Shown here in pieces: positions 7,702 to 31,412 of a DNA stretch of 64,000 bases (positions are counted from its first letter, which is position 1; each line of letters opens with the position of its first letter). This stretch comes from Paracoccaceae bacterium (lineage in GTDB: Bacteria > Pseudomonadota > Alphaproteobacteria > Rhodobacterales > Rhodobacteraceae). The position numbers were made by a program, and so were the translations under genes. A model generated the notes under the pieces. The model ran no database searches, had not been told where the DNA came from, and worked only from the letters and a program-made list of their open reading frames with translations. The stretch is taken from assembly GCA_014872815.1 (NCBI GenBank), contig WKFK01000014.1, forward strand, positions 1 to 64,000, written 5' to 3'.

Positions 7702-10391
7702 TGGGCACGCTGAATGTTCTGGTTGGCGTGTGCCTGATCTACGTCGTGTTCCTGTTTCTGATCGCCTTTGCGGCAGAGCGCGCGGCGCTGGAAGGCAAAG
7801 GCGGTTGGCTGCGCAGCCCGATGATTTATACGCTGTCGCTGTCGATCTATTGCACGGCGTGGACGTTTTACGGCGCGGTGGGCTACGCGGCGCGCTCCGG
7901 TCTGGAGTATCTGACGATCTATATTGGCCCTTCGTTGGTGATGATCGGTTGGTGGTGGCTCTTGCGCAAGTTGGTGCGGATTGGCCGCAGTCAGCGCATC
8001 ACATCGATTGCGGATTTGATTTCCTCTCGCTACGGCAAATCCAATTTGTTGGCGGTAGGCGTGACCGTTTTGGCGGTGATTGGCACCACGCCGTACATCG
8101 CCCTACAGCTGCAATCTGTAACTGTAAGTTTTGATGTTTTTTCAAGCGCTTACGGTTCGGAGTTGACGGAGGCTGCGCAGGGCAGCAATGCGCTTCTGGT
8201 GGCGGCTGGCCTGACGCTTTTTACTATTGTGTTTGGTACACGCAATCTGGATGTGAATGAGCGCCACCACGGTGTGGTGATGGCTGTGGCCGTGGAAGCG
8301 ATTGTGAAATTGTTTGCGCTGTTGGCGGTGGGGATTTTTGTGGTCTGGGGCTTGGGTGGCGGGGTCAGTGAAACTCTGGCTCGCATTGATGCCAGCGAGA
8401 TTGGGCAGTGGCAGATGCGCGGCGACCGTTGGGCGACGCTGATTTTTCTGTCGGGTGCAGCGTTTTTGTGCTTGCCACGCATGTTTCAAGTCATGGTGGT
8501 CGAGAACGAGAATGAGGACCATTTGCGCACCGCAAGCTGGGCCTTTCCGGCCTATCTGATGATCATGAGCCTGTTTGTGGTGCCGATTGCGGTGGTCGGG
8601 TTGGACCTCATGCCTGCGGGTAGCAACCCGGACTTTTTTGTGCTGACCGTACCGCTGGCGACGGGCAATGATGCGCTGGCGATGCTGAGTTTTATTGGCG
8701 GATTTTCCAGCGCGACATCGATGGTGATTGTGGCGGCGCTGGCGTTGTCGACCATGGTCTCCAACCATATTGTCATGCCGATCTGGCTGAGCACGCAAAG
8801 CGTTGGCGCGTCGGTGTCCGGCGACGTGCGCCACGTGGTCTTGCTGTCGCGGCGGATTTCCATCGGAGCGGTTGTGTTCTTGGGCTACCTCTATTTCCGC
8901 CTGTCGGGCGGGGGCAGTGCGCTGGCCTCGATGGGGCTGATTTCCTTTGCCGGCGTGGCGCAGTTTTTGCCGGTGCTGATTGGCGGGATTTTCTGGCGAG
9001 GGGCGACGCGCACAGGGGCGTTTGCGGGCCTGACTGTGGGCTTTGTGATTTGGGCTTACACGCTCCTGCTGCCCAGCTTTGGCGCGGGCACATTGGTGTC
9101 AGAAACCATGCTGGCGGAGGGGCCCATGGGGGTGGGGTGGCTGCGGCCTCAGGCGTTTTTTGGCATCACCGGCATGGACCCGTTGGTACATGCAGTGTTC
9201 TGGTCCATCCTATTGAATACAATGAGCTTCTTTATTGCGTCACTGGTGGGGTTCCCGTCGCCGCTTGAGCGTTTGCAGGGCGCGCAGTTTGTGAATGTGT
9301 TTGAGCATAGCTCCACACCGCAGAGCTGGGGAGGCAGTCTGGCGCAGACTGAGGATCTGATGGTGATGGCGCAGCGCATCATCGGCGCGCGGGAGGCGCA
9401 AAACCTGTTTGAACGCGAAGCCAAGCGGCAGGGCATGAGTGGACTGTTACCGGAACCGTCGCCCGACTTTTTGCAGCGTTTGGAGCGGGAATTGGCGGGC
9501 TCTGTGGGGGCGGCAACGGCACATGCGATGATTGGGCAGATTGTCGGTGGTGCGTCGGTGTCGGTTGAAGATCTGATGGCGGTGGCGGATGAGACCGCGC
9601 AGATGATGGAATACTCCAGCCGGTTGGAGGCCAAATCAGAAGAACAGGCGCGCACGGCGCGGCAGTTGCGTCAAGCCAACGAGAAGTTGACGCTGATTTC
9701 GGAGCAAAAAGACAGCTTCCTTAGTCAGGTGAGCCATGAGCTGCGCACGCCGATGACCTCCATTCGCGCCTTCTCGGAAATCCTGCGGGACAGTGACCGG
9801 TTGAGCGAAGAGGAGAAGATTAAATACAGCTCGATCATTCATGATGAAGCGCTGCGGCTGACACGGTTGTTGGATGATTTGCTGGATCTGAGTGTGTTGG
9901 AGAGCGGGCGGGTGAACCTGAACCTGCAAAGCGGGTCATTGAAAGGCATTTTAGATCACGCGGTGTCGAGTGCCTTGACTGGGGCAGGAACCAGCAAGGT
10001 GCAGGTCGTGCGCGATAGTCAGCAAGAAGAGGTGATGCTCTACACCGACCTGGATCGGCTGAGCCAAGTGTTCATCAACCTTATTGGAAACGCTCAGAAA
10101 TATTGCGATGCCAGCGTGCCGAAGCTGCGCATTGAAGTGGGGCACAGTACTGGGGCTTTGGTGGTGGATTTCATCGACAATGGCAGTGGTATCCCGAAGG
10201 TGGAGCAGGCGGTTATTTTCGAAAAATTCTCCCGCACGGGGGAGCAGAGGGTCAAAGGCGCGGGGCTTGGTCTGGCGATTTGTCGCGAGATTATGACCCG
10301 TTTGGGAGGGACGGTGGAGTACCTTCCCGGGCAGGGGGGCGCGGCCTTTCGGGTGACCTTACCGGAAGAGGCCGCATTGGCAGCGCAATAG
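7701..10391 (+). CDS. SLC5 transporter-STAC-histidine kinase fusion (CrbS-like acetate sensor)
   Basis: An 896-aa sensor. Residues 1 to about 500 are a sodium:solute symporter (SLC5) with about 13 membrane segments (SIYCTAWTFYGAVGYAARSG near 50). Residues about 545-625 match the STAC linker (GLLPEPSPDFLQRLERELAG...ATAHAMIG). Then come a coiled coil and the kinase: H-box SQVSHELRTP with H679, N-box FINLIGNAQKYCD, G1 DNGSGIP and G2 GAGLGLAI. No PAS domain is visible, unlike CrbS. CrbS-type kinases control acs in response to acetate; the acs gene 7.7 kb away and the ScfR regulator make the same role likely here. It is translationally coupled to the small membrane gene. Confidence 0.88.
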   Translation: MGTLNVLVGVCLIYVVFLFLIAFAAERAALEGKGGWLRSPMIYTLSLSIYCTAWTFYGAVGYAARSGLEYLTIYIGPSLVMIGWWWLLRKLVRIGRSQRITSIADLISSRYGKSNLLAVGVTVLAVIGTTPYIALQLQSVTVSFDVFSSAYGSELTEAAQGSNALLVAAGLTLFTIVFGTRNLDVNERHHGVVMAVAVEAIVKLFALLAVGIFVVWGLGGGVSETLARIDASEIGQWQMRGDRWATLIFLSGAAFLCLPRMFQVMVVENENEDHLRTASWAFPAYLMIMSLFVVPIAVVGLDLMPAGSNPDFFVLTVPLATGNDALAMLSFIGGFSSATSMVIVAALALSTMVSNHIVMPIWLSTQSVGASVSGDVRHVVLLSRRISIGAVVFLGYLYFRLSGGGSALASMGLISFAGVAQFLPVLIGGIFWRGATRTGAFAGLTVGFVIWAYTLLLPSFGAGTLVSETMLAEGPMGVGWLRPQAFFGITGMDPLVHAVFWSILLNTMSFFIASLVGFPSPLERLQGAQFVNVFEHSSTPQSWGGSLAQTEDLMVMAQRIIGAREAQNLFEREAKRQGMSGLLPEPSPDFLQRLERELAGSVGAATAHAMIGQIVGGASVSVEDLMAVADETAQMMEYSSRLEAKSEEQARTARQLRQANEKLTLISEQKDSFLSQVSHELRTPMTSIRAFSEILRDSDRLSEEEKIKYSSIIHDEALRLTRLLDDLLDLSVLESGRVNLNLQSGSLKGILDHAVSSALTGAGTSKVQVVRDSQQEEVMLYTDLDRLSQVFINLIGNAQKYCDASVPKLRIEVGHSTGALVVDFIDNGSGIPKVEQAVIFEKFSRTGEQRVKGAGLGLAICREIMTRLGGTVEYLPGQGGAAFRVTLPEEAALAAQ

Positions 10392-21405: not shown

Positions 21406-21496
21406 AAACGAAGCTCCAGTGCCCCTATAGCTCAGCTGGTAGAGCAACTGATTTGTAATCAGTAGGTCCGCGGTTCGAGTCCGTGTGGGGGCACCA
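21406..21496 (+). repeat. 91-bp direct repeat, left copy (tRNA-Thr plus 15 bp upstream)
   Basis: Identical base for base to 27325-27415. It includes the whole tRNA-Thr gene and AAACGAAGCTCCAGT in front of it; the base before and the base after differ between the copies, so the repeat ends exactly there. Its 3' end (TCCGTGTGGGGGCACCA) recurs alone at 33817-33833. These are the boundaries of the accessory segments. Confidence 0.95.
21421..21496 (+). tRNA. tRNA-Thr (anticodon TGT), copy 1
   Basis: A full 76-nt cloverleaf with encoded CCA. Acceptor GCCCCTA pairs with TGGGGGC, the anticodon stem ACTGA/TCAGT encloses loop TTTGTAA, and the T-arm is CGCGG-TTCGAGT-CCGTG. Anticodon TGT reads ACA (and other ACN) threonine codons. 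The gene and the 15 bp before it (21406-21420) are repeated exactly at 27325-27415. Confidence 0.97.
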
Positions 21497-21547
21497 TTTT
21501 TCATGTTTTTCAATAGGTTATCCTCGAATATGTGAGGGTAAAAACCT

Positions 21548-23245
21548 ATGGGAATGAAGCTACCTCAAGGCGTCTTTAAGCGTGGCAAGGGATACTCTGT
21601 CCGCGTCACCGTCCCGACAAAGCTTGTCGATTCTTTTGGTAAGAAAGAGATCATCCGTGGTCTTGGGACGCGCGACAAACTTGAAGCCGCACTCAAAGCG
21701 CCCGATGTGATCCTAGAGATCAAAAAGGGATTTTCCGAGGTGGGTAGGGGGCAACCTGTCCGTGAAAGACAGCAGGACATCTCCGTTCGCGCTATGGCGC
21801 ATCGCTGGTTGTCCTTCTATCAGGTCGTCATCGGCTGTCACGCGTGGCTCTTAGACCCCAAGGACAATCCATCAGGATGTGTCGGTGATCGCGATCTCAT
21901 AATCATCGATGAAGTGCCAAGTCAGAGTCAGGTTGCAAGCCTTAGCGTTGGTACATTTAACCTTGCGCGAGAGTTTTCTGAAACCAACGTCACGGAGGGG
22001 CACGAAGCAATCGTCGCGCTTGAAGCTTGGGCGGAGAAGTTTCGCGAGCAGACGCCTTCTAACTCTTTTGACCAGCCTGAATTTCCCGATCCACTGAGTG
22101 TGCTCCGAGTGCGTAATCAGAGAGGCTTGGTGATTGAACCTGACAGTCCCCTAGACCTCGTATTGAGGTTTGCCCAAGCTATGTACCAAAATCGTGCTTT
22201 CGTCCGCTGTAAGGCCGTTGCGGTTGATGGCCGCCAAGCCAACCAACCTAGATTCGTCTCGTTTGAGAAATGGACACCTTTCTTCCCGGATGCACAGTTC
22301 GCCGTGTTCTCGGCCACAGTCCACCTCGACGGGTTTCAAGTCAGCCCATACGCGGATCGTTTGGATGTCGTGCAAGGTTCGCTTGCCAACTACCCGTACA
22401 TGGTCATCAGGGAGGTACCTTGGGTATTGTCCTCCTCTTGCACATCGGACATCGTTTGCAACAGGGATCAAAGAAACAAGGCCGTCGCACAAATCATGTC
22501 GCTGATCCGGCATACAGAGGAAGGCTCGAGTGTTTTGATCGTCGTGCCCAAGAAAATCGAGTCCGATGTCATCCATGCTGTTTCAAAGACGTATGGTTCG
22601 CGGGACATGCCGAAGACAAGCAAGACCGTATTTATTACGCACTATGGCTGCGACGTAGGCTCTAACGCATACCGCGAGTGTACTGAGGTTATCCTCTGGT
22701 CTAACTATTATGTCCCTGCGGAAGCCTCCCTTGGAGAGATGTTGCACTTTGCTGAAGAGCTGGTCTCAACTTGCAGTCTGTCGGAAGCAAACAGCCGTGA
22801 AGGACGTTTGACCGATTTCAAGCAAGACAAGCTCTATGCCAACATCAAGCAAATGGGCGCAAGGGGATCATGCCGGTATATTGACGACAATGGCAATGCC
22901 CTGCCTATGCGACTTTGGGTGTGCTGGAAGCAACTGGATGTAGGGCGCTTGGATGACTTGTTTCCGGGACATAAGTTGGAGCGGCATGTTGACCCAGAGT
23001 ACGCAAAACCCACCAGCTACAAGGTAACTGATCGAGTGCTGGATTACCTAGTCGACCGACAGTCAGAACAAGGTCCTATCACTTTGAACGCCATTGCAGA
23101 TGCTATGGGCATGGACAAAGCAAACTTGCGCAAACAAACAGGAAATCTTCTGAAGGAAAACCAGCGTTTCGCTGCCTATGGCTGGAAGTATGTCAAAGGT
23201 GTTGCTCGAAGCAGGACCGACATGAATCGATTTGAGCAGGTTTGA
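21548..23245 (+). pseudogene. Integrase N-terminus fused in frame to the C-terminal part of a helicase-like protein
   Basis: 565 codons, open throughout. Residues 1-60 (MGMKLPQGVFKRGKGYSVRV, then LGTRDKLEAALKAPDVI) look like the arm-binding N-terminus of tRNA-targeting tyrosine integrases, placed 51 bp after the tRNA as expected. From about residue 90 the sequence is helicase-like: VVIGCHAWLLD, Walker B-like DLIIIDEVP (D121, E122), motif III-like FSATVHLDGF near 253, and SSVLIVVPKKIESDVI. No Walker A and no recombinase R-H-R-Y residues are present. A winged-helix-like tail (ITLNAIADAMGMDKANLRKQ) ends it. I read it as the product of a deletion joining two genes; whether it is still expressed is unknown. 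GAGGG precedes the start. Confidence 0.65.
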
Positions 23246-23633: not shown

Positions 23634-25901
23634 ATGATCCAGTATTTTGAAAAGATTGAAAATCTTGGTGTTTTTGCAAATTATAAAAAGCCGAAAGATG
23701 TAGAATCATTCCAACGCTTCAACTTGATTTATGGGCTGAACGGATCTGGCAAGACTACCTTGTCTCGATTCTTTTCTGACTTGAATGAGGGGGTCGCAGA
23801 AGGCTTTCCCGACCTGAAATACAAGATCAACACCGAAGATGGTGACTTCAAGCAAGGTACGCCTTACTCGCGTAAAATACGAGTGTTCAATGCAGAGTAT
23901 GTTGAGGCAAACATCGGACAACTCGAAGGGACGCTCAACCCAATTTACGTAATTGGTGCAGAGAACAAAACACTGGCGAATACTGTCAAGGCCGACGAAG
24001 ACCGTCTAGAGGCATTACAGCAGCAACTTTCAGAACAACAGACTGAGTTAGGAAGGTTGAAGAAAAAGAAAGGCAGGATCTTCACCGACATTGCTCCAAA
24101 AATCACTGAGGCCGCGAAAGGCGCCGTAACCCGGAATTACAACAAGAGAAATGCGGAGAAGGCATACGAGGGATTGGCTACTTTCAAACAGCTCGAGTTA
24201 GAGGAACTTTCCGAGGCCTCTAGAGCTATGAGACAGTCTCCAATGGACAAACTGACACAGTTCACAGGGCCACAAATTCGACTGGGGGAGACAGAAAAAC
24301 CACTGTTTGACGCGATAGATCTTCAGATAGCTGCAATCACTAACATACTGCAGAAGAGCGCAACATCTTCGGCGATCGAACGGTTGACAAGCAATCCAGC
24401 GCTTGCAGCTTGGGTCGAGGCTGGTAGGGCACTTCATGCTCATTCAGCTGATGTCAAATGTGAATATTGCCAACAAAAAGTTCCGGAGGCACGTGAAGCT
24501 GAGCTAGCAGCACACTTCAACACTTCTGATGCTAACTTGAAATCCGAAATTGAACGGGCGATCGAGGACAATCAAGCAATCTACGAGGGAGTTGAACGGA
24601 TTTCTGTCTTAAGTGATCAGGCTTTCTATCCTGAGTTTAGGAAAGAATACGCAGTTCAGGCTAAAGTCCTCCTTTCGCAGAAATCTGATATCATTGAGCT
24701 TTTAGAACGACTTGAAAAGGCGTTAAACGAAAAGCTGACTAGACGAACCGAGAGTTATGATTTGACGTTCCCTCTGGTGACTAGTGGCGCTTGGGGTGAC
24801 GCCTTGTCCTCTATTAATGATCTAATCAAAGGTCACAACACTGAAACCGATAGCTTTGAACAGCGACTAGAAGCGAACTTTGAGAAGATTGAAACACACT
24901 TCCTCAGTACGATCGAAAAAGAAGTCAAGGACGTCTCTGCGTCGATTTCAGCAGTGGAGAAAACGATCGGAATTTGTACTGATGGCGACCCTGACAGTAC
25001 GGCGCTTGGTGTAGACGATTTGACAAAACGCATTGCGGAAAACCGAGCAAAACTCTCAAATTCACAACAAGCTGCTGCCGAACTATCAGAAAAACTGGCT
25101 GCCTTCCTGGGGCGTGATGACTTAAAGTTTGAACCAGAGGGGGAAGGCTATCGGATCATGCGTTTCGGTCGCGCTGCCAAAAGGCTGAGTGAAGGTGAGA
25201 AAACGGCGATAACCTTCCTATATTTCGTTGTCAGCCTAGGGGATCGAGATTTCGACCTTACGGAAGGGATCGTGGTGATAGATGACCCGATTTCAAGCTT
25301 GGATTCTAGTTCGGTTTACCAAGCCTTCGCGTATTTAAAAAACGCTGTTAAAAATGCTAAACAGATCTTCCTTTTGACTCACAATTTCGAGTTCTTGAAG
25401 CTTCTCCTAAACTGGTTCCAGAACATTCCAAGCCCTAAGAAAAATGGTAAATCTACTTATTGGATGCTCCATTGCTCTTTGACGCCGGGAGGAGCTAGAG
25501 AAACTGAGATCAGGCCCCTTGATAAAGTCCTCCTTCAAAATAAAAATGAGTTTGCCTACTTGCTGAAGGAACTAATGAAGTTTGAGTCAGATGGGACTAT
25601 TCAGACGGCTTACCCCATTCCAAACATAATCCGGAAAGTTCTTGAAACGTTTCTAGAACAACATTCAACTGGGCAAAGTCTGTACTCCAAGCTTGAAAAC
25701 CTCAACTTCGAAGAGGCGAAAAAGACGGCGCTCTATAAATTTGCAAACGATCTGTCGCATCCAACATACTCTGGGCTTGATCCTGCCCTTGTCGGGGAAA
25801 CCCAAACTAACATTAAGCATCTATTGGAAATGATTGAGGAAGTAGCCCCGATTCATTTCAAAGCGCTCACTGAAACTATAGGTTCCATAGAGGAGACATG
25901 A
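23634..25901 (+). CDS. AAA_13-family ATPase, PrrC/RloC-like (candidate tRNA anticodon nuclease)
   Basis: 755 aa. Walker A G34-L-N-G-S-G-K-T; long coiled coil (residues 110-480) interrupted by C276-x2-C279, like a Rad50/RloC zinc hook; signature LSEGEK at 518-523; Walker B IVVIDDP ending at P552; H-loop H583. This is the PrrC-type ABC ATPase layout. The C-terminal part has R667-x3-E671 and, 38 residues on, N705-x3-H709, which fits the R-E-H triad of PrrC (R320, E324, H356 in E. coli). PrrC/RloC nucleases cut tRNA anticodon loops when phage disable restriction. No type I restriction genes are adjacent, as in many RloC loci. An alternative is a different AAA_13 defence ATPase without RNase activity. 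Confidence 0.75.
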   Translation: MIQYFEKIENLGVFANYKKPKDVESFQRFNLIYGLNGSGKTTLSRFFSDLNEGVAEGFPDLKYKINTEDGDFKQGTPYSRKIRVFNAEYVEANIGQLEGTLNPIYVIGAENKTLANTVKADEDRLEALQQQLSEQQTELGRLKKKKGRIFTDIAPKITEAAKGAVTRNYNKRNAEKAYEGLATFKQLELEELSEASRAMRQSPMDKLTQFTGPQIRLGETEKPLFDAIDLQIAAITNILQKSATSSAIERLTSNPALAAWVEAGRALHAHSADVKCEYCQQKVPEAREAELAAHFNTSDANLKSEIERAIEDNQAIYEGVERISVLSDQAFYPEFRKEYAVQAKVLLSQKSDIIELLERLEKALNEKLTRRTESYDLTFPLVTSGAWGDALSSINDLIKGHNTETDSFEQRLEANFEKIETHFLSTIEKEVKDVSASISAVEKTIGICTDGDPDSTALGVDDLTKRIAENRAKLSNSQQAAAELSEKLAAFLGRDDLKFEPEGEGYRIMRFGRAAKRLSEGEKTAITFLYFVVSLGDRDFDLTEGIVVIDDPISSLDSSSVYQAFAYLKNAVKNAKQIFLLTHNFEFLKLLLNWFQNIPSPKKNGKSTYWMLHCSLTPGGARETEIRPLDKVLLQNKNEFAYLLKELMKFESDGTIQTAYPIPNIIRKVLETFLEQHSTGQSLYSKLENLNFEEAKKTALYKFANDLSHPTYSGLDPALVGETQTNIKHLLEMIEEVAPIHFKALTETIGSIEET

Positions 25902-25988
25902 GTTCCAATTTGAAAGCGACCAATCTAGCGCGGTAGCCATTATGTTGCCATCGTACGGTAACGAACTACGTTTTGTTGAGGTGAACAC

Positions 25989-27140
25989 ATGTCCGAGTTG
26001 AAAATCCAGTGCCCAAAATGTTCCAATGAATTTGAACTGACGGAGCAATTAGCTGGTCCAATGTTGGCTGAGCTCCGGGCGTCTTTCAATGATCAATTGG
26101 CCCAAAAAGAAGCGCAAGCGGCAGACGCGCTGGCAGCTGCTCAGGCGGAAGCAAAGGAAGCGGCTAAAACCGAAATGGTGGCAGAACAGACTGCGCTCAG
26201 AGAACGTATCAAGGCGCAGGATGCAAAGCTTCGTGAAGCTCAAGTGGCTCAAGCTTCTGCGCTAAAGCGTGAACAAGAGCTGAAAGACAAAGAAGCTGAG
26301 ATGGAGTTGACGTTGCAGAAGATGCTTGCAGCTGAACGCCCGGCACTGGCTGAAAGGCTGACACGGGAGGCTAATGAAAAGGCCGAGCTGAAGTTGGCAG
26401 AACAAGAACAAGTAATGCAGGGCATGAAACGTCAAATTGAAGCGCTGAAACAAAAATCCGAACAAGGCTCAATGCAGACCCAAGGGGAAGCCGCTGAGAT
26501 TGTGTTGGAGGAAACACTAAGTGCAGCCTTTGCTATGGATGCTTTTCTACCCGTTGCTAAAGGTGTTAGTGGCGCGGATGTCCGCCAAGACGTATCTACG
26601 CCCAATGGGATCGCTGGCAGCATCCTTTGGGAAAGCAAACGTACAAAGAATTGGAGTGCCGGGTGGCTTGCAAAACTACGCAACGACCAGAGAGAAGCAG
26701 GCTGCGAATTGGCGGTACTAACCTCTCAAGCTCTGCCTGACGGTATTGATAGTTTCGGCATGATTGACGGTATCTGGGTTTGTGCGCCGAGGTATGCAGT
26801 ACCGCTTGCCCAATCTTTACGTCAGACCTTGATCGACGTAGCAAACGCCAAGGAACGGGCGATAGGGCAAGAAACCAAGATGGAAATGATTTATGACTAT
26901 TTGACCGGAAACCAGTTCAAACAACGCGTTGACGCGATTGTCGAACGTTTTGAAGATATGCAAGAAAACCTGCGCAAGGAACGTGTCTTCATGGAAAAAC
27001 AATGGGCGCTACGGGCCAAACAAATCGATCTAGTGATCGCATCAACGGTTGGAATGCACGGTGATTTGCAGGGAATCGCAGGACGGTCGATGCCTGAAAT
27101 TGAAAGCGTCGCGACACTACAAATTGGTAAAGAGGACTAA
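25989..27140 (+). CDS. DUF2130 protein with coiled coil and nuclease-like ExK motif
   Basis: 383 aa. A short N-terminal CxxC (C8, C11; IQCPKCSNEFEL), then an Ala/Glu-rich coiled coil (residues 30-160), then the DUF2130 region with DVRQDV at 197-202 and SILWESKRTKNW at 211-222. The E215-x-K217 with the preceding aspartates resembles a PD-(D/E)xK nuclease core; this is a motif reading, not proof. A ribosome site TGAGG precedes the ATG. The gene is 87 nt downstream of the PrrC-like gene and probably co-transcribed with it. Function of the family is not established to my knowledge. Confidence 0.75.
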   Translation: MSELKIQCPKCSNEFELTEQLAGPMLAELRASFNDQLAQKEAQAADALAAAQAEAKEAAKTEMVAEQTALRERIKAQDAKLREAQVAQASALKREQELKDKEAEMELTLQKMLAAERPALAERLTREANEKAELKLAEQEQVMQGMKRQIEALKQKSEQGSMQTQGEAAEIVLEETLSAAFAMDAFLPVAKGVSGADVRQDVSTPNGIAGSILWESKRTKNWSAGWLAKLRNDQREAGCELAVLTSQALPDGIDSFGMIDGIWVCAPRYAVPLAQSLRQTLIDVANAKERAIGQETKMEMIYDYLTGNQFKQRVDAIVERFEDMQENLRKERVFMEKQWALRAKQIDLVIASTVGMHGDLQGIAGRSMPEIESVATLQIGKED

Positions 27141-27324
27141 GTGGCACACAAACCGTTCTTGAGGACTGCGCGACGATTTTTTGCTGAATGCACTTTAGAC
27201 ATCGAAAAGAAAGAGCCGAGCTCGGTCAAGAAGAACCGAATTCTACCTCAAAAACATGTACGGTATTGCGCTCAGATTCCCGTACATCTAACCTCAAGGT
27301 TCCGAAACTGGATAACTTTGAGAA

Positions 27325-27415
27325 AAACGAAGCTCCAGTGCCCCTATAGCTCAGCTGGTAGAGCAACTGATTTGTAATCAGTAGGTCCGCGGTTCGAGTC
27401 CGTGTGGGGGCACCA
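27325..27415 (+). repeat. 91-bp direct repeat, right copy
   Basis: Identical to 21406-21496, i.e. tRNA-Thr plus AAACGAAGCTCCAGT upstream. Confidence 0.95.
27340..27415 (+). tRNA. tRNA-Thr (anticodon TGT), copy 2
   Basis: Base-for-base identical to the copy at 21421-21496, complete with CCA, so it can fold and be charged in the same way. It ends segment A and begins segment B. A complete second copy is unusual at an attachment site, where normally only the 3' part of the tRNA is duplicated. Confidence 0.97.
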
Positions 27416-27907
27416 CTTTTATCACGCAAGATACTGTTAAATAGAGAAAAAAGGCGAAGTCTTTCGACTTCACCCCACAATTTACCCCACACTGGTCGCT
27501 TGCTAGGATCACGCTTTTTCAAACAAACCTTTCGGCCCCGCAATCCTCGAATAGGTGGTTGAATGCTCCTTGCCGCCCAATTTGTAGGTCGTGAGCTTGC
27601 CCACATTTCTCAAACGAGGCACCCTTTCACTGCTGCAGTTGTTTTCTTCGCTAGTTTGTCGTTGCTGCTAGGTTTTTGAGTTTACCGCTCGGACGGCATT
27701 AACGTGGCAAGTTGGGCGGAGAGCCGACCTTCACTGCGGTTCGCGCCAAGGTTTGCTATGCGCAGATAGTGACCTTTGCAAACTCACATGAGGCGGCCAA
27801 TTGCGAACCTTAGGAGTTATATTGGCGTATTCAGTAACCAGTTTTTTGAACTGTTCGCGCATTTCGTTGGATCTAAGTATAAAATTACACCCTCCAAGGA
27901 GTGTGTA
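27416..27907. other. Gene-poor left end of segment B with a possible gene tail
   Basis: 492 bp. On the minus strand a short open stretch ending at a TGA at 27509-27511 reads ...NVGKLTTYKLGGKEHSTTYSR and ends GPKGLFEKA; it looks like the C-terminus of a real protein, without a start or an N-terminal part. The rest, up to the ribosome site of the gene at 27908, shows nothing recognisable. Confidence 0.4.
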
Positions 27908-28633: not shown

Positions 28634-28790
28634 AATTGTCGGTTGACGCGAGCTGGAAAAGTTGCCTAGGAACACTAAATGAAATTTTCAATAAAACTTC
28701 TATAAGCTCCTCTATTCTAACACAATTACACCCCATCAAGGCAATGGCCGTGCCGGATAATCATACGCGTGTTTGTGTGAGGTGCTCGGT

Positions 28791-31412
28791 ATGCCCCGTT
28801 ATGTTATTGCGGACTCCAATATCTATTCTTCTGAGACGATTGAAACTGAAATGTTTGGTGCGAACTTCGTAACCAGCCATGATTTCGCGTTTTCTCAACA
28901 AGACGAACTGAATACGGTTTTGGAAACCCTAGGCGTAAGCTCGTTTCGTTTTCCGGGTGGTGGCGTAACCGAAGGCGAGTTTGCGGAAGCCTCCTTCATG
29001 ACGGGCAACTGGTCGGCGGACTCGATTTTGTGGAACGACGAGATAAAATCCCTCACTCCGCTTTCTGCCTTTTTCGAAACCGCTGCCGAGGTCAGTGCAA
29101 ACGTTCAATTGGTCATTCCAACCCGAGTGGCCTTCGACCTTTCTGCTGGTCAAGCGCTGGCAACAGGACAGTATGGGCATCGCGAAACAATCGACCCACA
29201 GTACTTTGATCTCTTACGTAACTATGTCGAAGAGGCGCTCGCGCAGGCGAATGCAAACGGGATTGAAATATCTCGGTTTGAAATTGGGAACGAGTTCTGG
29301 CTGGGCGGTGAAATGTCTGCTGCAGAGTATGGATTCGTTTCGGCCGAAATTGCCAATTTCCTGAACGATGAATTTCCGGGGATCGACATTATCACCCAAC
29401 TGGTTGCGACAACCGGCAGATTTAGCCCAGTAGAAGCGAGGGAAGTGTATCTCGAGCCCGATGGAGCAGGTGACTATATAATTCACTTTGCAAATGCATT
29501 CGACGGACTGCCACCTTCTGATTGGCCTGCTGCGATCATGCCGGCCAATGGGAATACCAATACCCAAACCAACTCAATTGCAGACGCCCTTTTAAGCAAC
29601 CCTCCAGCTGCTCAGATCATTGATGGTGTGGTCGAGCACGTTTACTTTAGTGATGGGTTTGAAGGGGTGGATAACGAACGGGATTTTGCGCTTCGGTCAA
29701 TTTTCGACACTTTCAGCAATGCGATAAACCGGTCGGATTTGGACTACTTCATTACAGAGTGGTCTCCGAGAAATCCTCGAAATTCCGATGTGTCCGACAA
29801 CCTCGGCAACGCCAATGGTCTGCAGTACGCACACATGACCGTCGAGGCCTTTTTTGAGTTGTCCTCAAATGGCGTCGATGGCGCCAACTTTTGGCCAATG
29901 ACCTTTGCCAACCCAAACACAGAGTATCGAACCCTAATCGATATTGTGGACCGGGAGCTAACTTTCGGTGGCGTTGCCTTCTCCTGGCTCTCGACCGCGA
30001 CTGTAGGCATGACAGCGAGAGCAGATTTCGAAGTCATCGGTGAGATTTCAGTTCATGCCTTTGGGAGCGAGACCGAAATCGCTCTATTTGTTGGAGACCG
30101 GGACGGACACGAAAATACTGGGACAAATGCAGTTGTTTTGAACATGGATGAACTAGGTGTCAGCGAGGATTATTTTGTCGTGATTTCTGGGCTGACATCT
30201 GAAAACGGCGAGTTTGACGACATTTCCGGAAATGCGGTCGTTGCCACTTCTGGAGGTACTATAGTGAGCGGTGACTTGTCATTTGAGTTGCTGGCTTGGG
30301 AGCTTGCACTCGTGGAAATCCAGATTGTTACGGCAGGAGATGATCGTCTTCACGGTTCAAATTTAAGTGATTTCATGCGTGGGGAAGGGGGAGACGACTG
30401 GATAAATGGGTTTGAGGGGAATGACACTCTCAAAGGACAACTTGGCCATGATACGCTCCGTGGGGATGACGGCGAGGATGTACTGAAAGGTGGATGGGGG
30501 GATGATCTTTTATTCGGCGGAACCGGAGACGATCTCTTAGAGGGAGGGCATGGAGCTGATGAGCTGCACGGAGGGCGCGGCAACGACGTAATTTGGGGAC
30601 AGGATGGCAACGACACTATCTTCTCGGGCCCGGGAACGGATTTAGCTTTTGGTGGAGCAGGAAACGACATTATCTACCTTCAAACCAATGAAGTGCACGA
30701 GGGTGGTCTGGGAGGTTTGAACGTTTCGGGGAATGGCCAGGTTGGAACTGGCGTCTTCATCGCTGCCACCGGCATGAACCGATACAGCGATGTGGTCTAC
30801 GGGGGAGTGGGAACAGATACCGTTGTTCTAAGTAATCAGGATGATGCTTACTTTCTTCACGACGGTTACTCAGAACTTCATCAAGAGGTAGAAACCTTGC
30901 CGACTTCATGGGGCGATGACACCGCAGCGCGTTTTCAAGAAATCGAAATCCTGGATGCCGGGGCTGGCAATGACTTAGTTGATCTTACCAGCGACACTTT
31001 CACGAGCGGTGGAGTAACGATACTGGGCGGAGAAGGTAACGATACCATTTGGGGGTCTTCCTCCGGTGAAAGGATCGAAGGTGGGGCTGGGGCTGACGTC
31101 CTATTTGGAGGTGCGGGTGCTGACACACTTCTGGGAGGAACCGGCTCTGACGTGTTTGAATTCACCTGTACATCCACCGAAAGCCGTCTCGAAGACTTTT
31201 CGATTGTTGAGAATGATAGGCTCGCTTTCTATGGCGGATCTCTCGTCGTTTTTGACGAAGGTTCTTTGAGGCTAAATGGTAGCTTCCTAGAAATAGATTA
31301 TGTCGATTCATTCGAGGTTGATGGCACTGTTAGGATCGAACTTTCAGCGGCATCTTTAGCGGCAATACAGGCCGTTGGCATCGCTTCCATTGAGTTTGAT
31401 TTATTCGCATAG
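28791..31412 (+). CDS. RTX protein with clan GH-A-like glycosidase domain (island copy)
   Basis: 873 aa from the ATG at 28791 with GAGG upstream. Residues 1-410: TIM-barrel glycosidase-like, with MFGANFV (21-27), FRFPGGG (52-58), putative acid/base E168 in FEIGNEFW, DGVVEHVYF (278-286) and putative nucleophile E323 in FITEW. Then a beta-sandwich, and from about 515 calcium-binding GGxGxDxLx repeats in two blocks (about 525-630 and 740-800) separated by a spacer. It ends in a serralysin-like C-terminus, as expected for type I secretion. It lacks the hydrophobic N-terminal segment of its two relatives. Substrate is probably a polysaccharide, but the family cannot be fixed. Confidence 0.75.
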   Translation: MPRYVIADSNIYSSETIETEMFGANFVTSHDFAFSQQDELNTVLETLGVSSFRFPGGGVTEGEFAEASFMTGNWSADSILWNDEIKSLTPLSAFFETAAEVSANVQLVIPTRVAFDLSAGQALATGQYGHRETIDPQYFDLLRNYVEEALAQANANGIEISRFEIGNEFWLGGEMSAAEYGFVSAEIANFLNDEFPGIDIITQLVATTGRFSPVEAREVYLEPDGAGDYIIHFANAFDGLPPSDWPAAIMPANGNTNTQTNSIADALLSNPPAAQIIDGVVEHVYFSDGFEGVDNERDFALRSIFDTFSNAINRSDLDYFITEWSPRNPRNSDVSDNLGNANGLQYAHMTVEAFFELSSNGVDGANFWPMTFANPNTEYRTLIDIVDRELTFGGVAFSWLSTATVGMTARADFEVIGEISVHAFGSETEIALFVGDRDGHENTGTNAVVLNMDELGVSEDYFVVISGLTSENGEFDDISGNAVVATSGGTIVSGDLSFELLAWELALVEIQIVTAGDDRLHGSNLSDFMRGEGGDDWINGFEGNDTLKGQLGHDTLRGDDGEDVLKGGWGDDLLFGGTGDDLLEGGHGADELHGGRGNDVIWGQDGNDTIFSGPGTDLAFGGAGNDIIYLQTNEVHEGGLGGLNVSGNGQVGTGVFIAATGMNRYSDVVYGGVGTDTVVLSNQDDAYFLHDGYSELHQEVETLPTSWGDDTAARFQEIEILDAGAGNDLVDLTSDTFTSGGVTILGGEGNDTIWGSSSGERIEGGAGADVLFGGAGADTLLGGTGSDVFEFTCTSTESRLEDFSIVENDRLAFYGGSLVVFDEGSLRLNGSFLEIDYVDSFEVDGTVRIELSAASLAAIQAVGIASIEFDLFA

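Follow-up and report, generated by a model that had tools for sequence, protein, structure and literature searches.

The locus described here raises the question of whether two neighbouring genes, one for an RloC-like ATPase of the AAA_13 family and one for a protein of the DUF2130 family, form a single phage-defence unit. Both lie on the forward strand of a 64,000-nucleotide (nt) stretch of contig WKFK01000014.1 (assembly GCA_014872815.1, Paracoccaceae bacterium), which is referred to below as the window. The ATPase, of 755 amino acids (aa), is encoded at 23634..25901 and the 383-aa DUF2130 protein at 25989..27140. A preliminary description of this DNA had proposed the pair as one defence unit; the open reading frames (ORFs) and the residues that it named (C276, C279, R667, E671 and H709 in the ATPase, E215 and K217 in the DUF2130 protein) are present as it gave them. 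The explanation favoured here, to which a probability of about 0.45 is attached, is that an RloC-like abortive-infection ATPase acts jointly with DUF2130, a portable DNA-nuclease accessory. Its observed and predicted base consists of the motifs of the two proteins, a predicted nuclease fold and a recurrent neighbourhood in which partners are swapped.

Predicted active sites of the two proteins

The ATPase was matched by the Pfam family PF13166 (AAA_13; 437 bits, cut-off 36) and, over its full length, by the PADLOC PDC-S06 model PDLC04894 (845 bits). A PDC-S06 locus appears in a table of predicted systems in the portion of PMC11514479 used here. According to the passages of PMC2610378 drawn on in this study, RloC, an anticodon nuclease that excises the wobble nucleotide, is defined by an Arg-X3-Glu-X36-52-His triad, often with Ser before the His, by an ABC ATPase divided by a coiled-coil insert that bears a CX2C zinc hook, and by a length of 658–897 aa. 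In its sequence the window protein conforms to this definition, with a putative coiled coil and hook. Its head carries a Walker A motif (GLNGSGKT, residues 34–41; 23733..23756), the ABC signature LSEGEK (residues 518–523; 25185..25202), a Walker B/D-loop region (546–557) and a switch His (583); the insert separating the two ATPase halves holds the CxxC of the zinc hook (C276–C279; 24459..24470); and the predicted anticodon-nuclease triad, R667-x3-E671-x37-H709 with S708 before the His, follows at 25632..25760.

Conservation of these residues was assessed in an alignment of 16 AAA_13 sequences, from which the L054 homologue, having an inner stop, was omitted. At identities as low as 16%, R667 and H709 are kept in all 16 and E671 in 15 (Asp in L053), and all 15 sequences that cover the hook region have the CxxC; the motifs are therefore beyond chance. 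A classical HEPN motif (Rx4-6H) is absent, there being no Arg 5–7 residues before H709; RloC and PrrC were placed in HEPN by profile comparison, in the part of PMC3710099 used here. From its sequence, the window ATPase can be assigned with good confidence to the RloC-like anticodon nucleases, and the RloC-type triad and hook of the preliminary description are thus upheld.

The second protein belongs to DUF2130 (PF09903; 221 bits, cut-off 26.7). Its gene starts 87 nt after that of the ATPase, and a simple promoter and terminator scan of this gap found no more than in shuffled sequence. Near the N terminus it has a zinc-ribbon-like CxxC (C8–C11; 26010..26021), followed by a long helix in the AlphaFold2 model that is predicted to form a coiled coil (residues 19–158; 26043..26462), and then by a predicted nuclease core (residues 161–284; 26469..26840) containing D197, E215 and K217. 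In the AlphaFold2 model, as judged by structure alignment, this core has the PD-(D/E)XK-like fold (alpha-beta3-alpha-beta), and Pfam may place DUF2130 in the clan of that name. D197, E215 and K217 are invariant in all 29 aligned DUF2130 relatives. In a separate set of 20 sequences E215 and K217 are again invariant, while D197 is not (Tyr in L061). C8–C11 is found in 20 of 20, and in the 28 sequences of a 29-sequence set that cover the region. The invariant D/E/K residues suggest catalysis rather than binding. The ExK motif, CxxC and coiled coil reported earlier for this protein accordingly reappear here as a predicted nuclease fold, an invariant cysteine pair and a long helix.

Sequence and profile comparisons with solved structures returned only what appear to be chance matches to coiled coils and zinc fingers. 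A Foldseek comparison with viral models gave five matches, with E values of up to 0.001; four have no function name and one is an Mrr-type restriction endonuclease. At an E value of 0.1, the window's DUF2130 had no match among the PADLOC models. A literature search (DUF2130, COG4487, PF09903, DEXK, SIR2-HerA), judged by titles and the beginnings of abstracts and with a coverage that takes in few subscription papers and no bioRxiv, yielded no paper tying DUF2130 to defence.

Recurrence of the pairing and exchange of partners

AAA_13 directly adjoins DUF2130 at nine loci in two phyla; one of these loci lies on a viral contig and one on a plasmid of Lactococcus, the others being from Pseudomonadota. 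The nine pairs represent five of the PADLOC AAA_13 subfamilies: PDLC04894 (the window, and L003 only by way of its 75% identity to the window protein), 04898 (L124, L129 and L130), 04891 (L126, and L139, where it is tied with 04893), 04890 (L241) and 04886 (L268). In L241 the two ORFs share 14 nt, and in L124 a gap of 14 nt separates them.

It was of interest to compare this adjacency with chance. In a sample of 390 genomes of the order, AAA_13 stands directly beside 5 of the 24 DUF2130 loci over the cut-off (4 of 23 when the window is left out). Under random placement, with 55 AAA_13 loci assumed in the 390 genomes (53 over the cut-off by the author's own count), 0.006 such pairs are expected (P = 5e-11); if defence genes are taken to be clustered 50-fold the expectation is 0.3 (P = 3e-4), and at 100-fold it is 0.6 (P = 3e-3). 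The co-occurrence that the preliminary description had proposed to look for is therefore found far above random at the level of adjacency, but not at that of whole genomes: AAA_13 exceeded the cut-off in 5 of 23 genomes with DUF2130 and in 45 of 367 others, counts that are lower bounds as two candidates were scored per genome, and there is no clear excess. The signal thus lies in the adjacency.

A tree of DUF2130 proteins, with 69 rows chosen and labelled by the author and with some long branches (above all L241), was used to count the changes of neighbour, whether gains or losses. Six changes were obtained for AAA_13 (at least five forced), ten for OLD (at least nine forced) and five for HerA (at least five forced), the forced minimum being the number demanded by well-supported branches. 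A single clade of the nine AAA_13-paired rows was rejected (approximately unbiased test, p-AU 3.5e-5). The exchange of partners is also apparent among close relatives. The DUF2130 proteins nearest to that of the window (L124, L126, L127, L129 and L130; 82–87% identical) adjoin two other PDC-S06 subfamilies or Gabija, and in L124, L129 and L130, where DUF2130 is 82–84% identical to that of the window, the AAA_13 neighbours are just 16–19% identical. Two Lactococcus plasmids, pCV56A (L267) and pC42 (L268), are 95% identical through an upstream gene and DUF2130 and part 10–22 nt before the end of the DUF2130 gene. Beyond this point pCV56A carries TrlF and pC42 carries AAA_13, a natural cassette swap.

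The idea that DUF2130 is a mere conserved flank of one type of island was considered and rejected. Nucleotide likeness to the window hardly extends beyond the coding sequence (the widest match, 25949–27143, is to L138, an order-sample locus at a contig end with its partner gene out of view), and an ARAGORN search for tRNA genes was negative in L124, L126, L129 and L130.

The partners of DUF2130 were surveyed more widely in three partly overlapping samples, in which DUF2130 exceeded the cut-off in 13 of 385 genomes (class), 23 of 390 (order) and 26 of 349 (phylum). The neighbourhoods of 58 loci were examined, the window included; the loci of G794, G790, G389, G339 and G346 were excluded, being weak or lying at the end of a contig. 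Distances are approximate, a wrong ORF having been picked at the place of DUF2130 in some loci (e.g. L131, L133, L137, L142, L203 and L067). A match to one of ten query proteins was found within 6 kb at 18 of the 58 loci and at none of 20 control regions; the count of defence partners is 16 when L062 and L064, with UvrD only, are removed. AAA_13/PDC-S06 was found in the window, L124, L126, L129, L130 and L139 (PADLOC run on all), and OLD or Gabija in L127, L056, L141, L147, L149 and L150 (PADLOC run on L127, L141, L147 and L150). The OLD protein of L147 (229 bits) was detected by PADLOC although it had been missed by the ten queries. SIR2-HerA was found in L119, L120 (SIR2 only), L145 and L146, with a SIR2 fragment in L206 (PADLOC run on L119 and L120). 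In L003 the gene order is AAA_13, DUF2130 (of the other branch) and a GmrSD-type gene. In three alphaproteobacterial genomes (L064, L065 and L152), a separate DUF2130 subfamily of approximately 540–570 aa is directly followed by a conserved ORF of 315–319 aa that looks ParB-like by eye.

DUF2130 occurs on many viral contigs (L212–L240). Among 43 such contigs, AAA_13 overlaps it in L241, as mentioned above, and OLD adjoins it in L237, L247, L249 and L252; the same partner queries gave no match in the remainder. A second viral scan returned 15 loci, 12 of them newly named, of which only L278–L281 came from contigs not seen before; OLD was present solely on three contigs already counted. For plasmids, the surroundings of 15 records were opened, out of 42 and 58 hit records. 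AAA_13 lies beside DUF2130 in the Lactococcus cremoris plasmid pC42 (814 bits in PADLOC), TrlF (by annotation, with no PADLOC match) in pCV56A, and OLD in L265 and L073. In L262 the neighbours are, by annotation, DUF4297 and a DUF87 protein, and in L072 they are a methyltransferase and an S subunit. Among the remaining nine of the 15 records no such system lies immediately beside DUF2130; one of the nine, L069, carries an ATPase of the AAA family.

Proposed joint action and its alternatives

To our knowledge, the trigger of the RloC-type anticodon nucleases and their mode of contact with DNA are still open questions, and a nuclease encoded next door would, if the present explanation is true, offer a direct and testable answer. 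The ABC head, which resembles that of Rad50, would together with the hooked coiled coil sense a DNA state made by phage attack, such as ends or damage, and a DNA-dependent change in the head would free the C-terminal ribonuclease (RNase) site formed by R667, E671 and H709. The freed site may then cut tRNA anticodon loops and stop translation, the ATPase being both sensor and toxin. DUF2130 would be a DNA nuclease of the PD-(D/E)XK type, equipped with a zinc ribbon and an extended coiled coil, and would work with the ATPase at DNA, where it may cut, process or hold the end read by the ATPase, as Mre11 or SbcD does for Rad50 or SbcC. In other lineages the portable DUF2130 would be used beside OLD/Gabija, HerA and TrlF systems. 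The tie of DUF2130 to defence is drawn from genome context; joint action, tRNA cleavage, DNA as the trigger and catalysis by DUF2130 are all put forward here as presumptions.

This scheme could be extended further, with DUF2130 as a plug-in DNA-nuclease subunit common to RloC-type, OLD/Gabija, SIR2- and DUF4297-HerA and TrlF systems, and serving in the window as the missing Mre11-like partner that would present phage DNA to the ATPase. In this strong form the proposal is rather unlikely. Within the explanation favoured here, the idea of an ATPase that uses an exchangeable DNA nuclease is strengthened by the SbcD-like neighbour in the closest relatives of the ATPase. Relatives that are 63–64% identical to the window ATPase carry, in the place of DUF2130, genes for an SbcD-like nuclease and an AAA_27 protein. 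At L001:8001–14882, at the same coordinates of L002 and at L177:6603–13558, the ATPase gene is followed within 31–132 nt by genes for a metallophosphoesterase resembling SbcD and for an AAA_27 ATPase (SbcC/YhaN-like). These calls are based on Pfam for L001, on identical coordinates for L002 (possibly one strain) and on likeness to L001 for L177. It is possible that the ATPase, the SbcD-like nuclease and AAA_27 form a three-gene RloC-like system. In the remainder of this set of relatives, which as a whole spans 40–64% identity, L075 has divergently oriented SbcD-like and AAA_27 genes and L076 and L077 have convergent McrBC-type genes (all by annotation), and nothing obvious lies beside the relative in L050 and L051.

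Several observations weigh against joint action. The ATPase is mostly found without DUF2130: of seven strong members of its subfamily (>400 bits) in the class sample, six are in genomes with no DUF2130 match, the exception being the genome of the window, and DUF2130 was not found beside the relatives in L001, L002, L177, L050, L051, L075, L076 and L077. Conversely, AAA_13 is absent within 6 kb at 52 of the 58 surveyed DUF2130 loci, and DUF2130 stands alone among chromosomal genes (by eye) in five g310 genomes (L121, L122, L123, L128 and L136). On phage contigs it is accompanied by DNA polymerase A and an Enc34-type single-stranded DNA (ssDNA)-binding protein (L218) or adjoins a PDDEXK_1 nuclease (L224), in both cases by Pfam; L214, L215, L223, L227 and L229 look alike by eye. 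The phage neighbours suggest involvement in the replication or recombination of phage DNA, and the solitary copies in chromosomes and phages indicate that DUF2130 can serve without the ATPase. To these may be added the lack of an excess at the whole-genome level and the gap of 87 nt between the two genes in the window. The aligned His is missing from two of the nine paired AAA_13 proteins (Val in L241; Lys in L139, with a His nearby), five of the nine AAA_13 rows share one DUF2130 clade, and the tree count treats gains and losses alike. The survey queries were taken from DUF2130 neighbourhoods, so that the kinds of partner were not chosen blind, and its controls are only 20 regions at fixed places chosen by the author in DUF2130-bearing genomes. 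The unit proposed in the preliminary description therefore survives as a recurrent association, but not as a fixed or exclusive one, most of the examined relatives of the ATPase lacking DUF2130 and DUF2130 also having other partners or none.

An alternative is that the two are independent defence genes sharing an island. The ATPase would then be an RloC/PDC-S06 system complete in one gene, and DUF2130 a DNA nuclease that acts separately, in defence or repair, and likewise needs no second gene. This is a plausible account, though not the one that we would choose. PDC-S06 is a candidate kind of its own in PADLOC, where no model matched the window's DUF2130; the ATPase mostly occurs without DUF2130; the neighbours of DUF2130 are of many unrelated kinds and sometimes lacking; and defence genes cluster anyway. 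Clustering alone, however, would yield the fraction of a pair calculated above for either fold value, against the four pairs seen without the window. Moreover, ATPase systems of the ABC or HerA type make up most of the neighbours found for DUF2130, often on one strand with it and overlapping it or within 25 nt, and the same kinds of partner occur in both main DUF2130 branches, that of the window and the other, which is 23–24% identical to the window protein.

A role for DUF2130 in control or rescue, in which it would silence the toxic ATPase in uninfected cells or repair DNA after activation, appears improbable. RloC-type toxins are thought to require silencing (passages of PMC2610378 drawn on here), DUF2130 adjoins several systems of suicide type, and the solo chromosomal copies, together with the phage copies by DNA polymerase A and the ssDNA-binding protein, would fit repair or recombination. 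Against this, the ATPase occurs without DUF2130 in most genomes examined, and DUF2130 as its obligate antitoxin was rejected for that reason; the nuclease residues invariant in the 29 relatives, too, suggest catalysis over binding.

RloC-like proteins are already known, and it is the wider pattern of DUF2130 neighbours that is worth following. Because this domain of unknown function recurs next to phage-defence systems of several classes, its partners being exchanged, it is a candidate for an accessory of general use in bacterial immunity.

The island and its likeness to known systems

The preliminary description had placed the genes on a tRNA-borne island, and both are indeed enclosed by two 96-nt repeats (21406..21501 and 27325..27420, forward strand), direct in orientation and 99% identical, each bearing a tRNA-Thr(TGT) gene. 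The left copy (tRNA at 21421–21496) is an island boundary and, by synteny, holds the native tRNA; the right copy holds a second, complete tRNA (27340–27415). The duplicated boundary comprises the whole tRNA-Thr gene and 15 nt upstream, rather than just the tRNA 3′ end, so that an island whose ATPase probably cuts tRNA itself supplies a second intact tRNA-Thr(TGT).

The G+C content is 48% for the island and 45% for the ATPase gene, as compared with 59% on the left side and 53% on the right. Nine genomes of the genus were searched, that of the window among them, and every one has the flank to the left of the island together with this tRNA; for G636 the tRNA matched separately, 180 nt beyond the flank match. 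The island interior had no match in the five same-genus genomes that were read downstream (L165–L169, of which L167 shows 1.1 kb only). A 46-nt partial copy of tRNA-Thr (its 3′ end) lies at 9994–10039 of L168 (G473:C2), some 8.1 kb past the syntenic tRNA, a hint of another island and of a site in repeated use as a hotspot. The genome of the window has one DUF2130 match and one AAA_13 match.

Next to the left repeat, at 21548..23245 on the forward strand, is an ORF of 565 aa with an N-terminal integrase-type DUF6538 domain (residues 9–64, 45.9 bits). The Pfam search gave no further family in this ORF, and tblastn of its remainder against plasmids gave no homologue; it is probably a truncated integrase fused into other coding sequence. 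This apparent truncation would suit the notion that both genes are functionless passengers of a dead integrative element, which is nevertheless very improbable, since both frames are full length with their active-site residues kept and DUF2130 is 82–87% identical to relatives in other genera. To the right of the island, an 879-aa ORF (28773–31412) has a Gly/Asp-rich second half that resembles RTX calcium repeats by eye.

In comparison with known systems, RloC and the window ATPase share a hook-split ABC ATPase and a C-terminal triad with Ser, and the 755 aa of the latter fall within the published length range. The lack of linkage to a restriction system had been remarked on in the preliminary description, and no restriction-modification gene was seen by eye among the ORFs listed for 19.6–31.4 kb. 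This is, however, usual for RloC, linkage with a restriction locus of type I or III applying to only 8 of 72 (passages of PMC2610378 drawn on here), and it was rejected as a sign of novelty. The window differs in the DUF2130 gene that follows the gene of the putative anticodon nuclease, to which those passages make no reference. PrrC has the ABC motifs and the Arg-Glu-His triad in common with the window ATPase, which scored 53 bits with the PADLOC PrrC model (best stretch, residues 536–736). PrrC proteins are, however, of 341–416 aa without the RloC insert (same passages of PMC2610378), whereas the window protein, at 755 aa and with a CxxC, lies outside the PrrC length range. PrrC is, in addition, embedded in a restriction locus of type I, and none was seen by eye among the ORFs of 19.6–31.4 kb, the span of the island included. 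PDC-S06 matches the window ATPase over its full length but is a kind of its own in PADLOC, and here it lies beside DUF2130. Rad50-Mre11 and SbcC-SbcD follow the same logic of a hooked, Rad50-like ATPase next to a DNA nuclease, to which the SbcD-like neighbour in L001, L002 and L177 conforms; DUF2130, by contrast, is predicted to be PD-(D/E)XK-like and not a metallophosphoesterase, and the window ATPase carries a predicted RNase triad of its own. Gabija, OLD, SIR2-HerA and DUF4297-HerA, finally, adjoin relatives of the window's DUF2130 (L127, L056, L141, L147, L119, L120, L145, L146 and L262), but with ATPases and effectors other than those of the window island.

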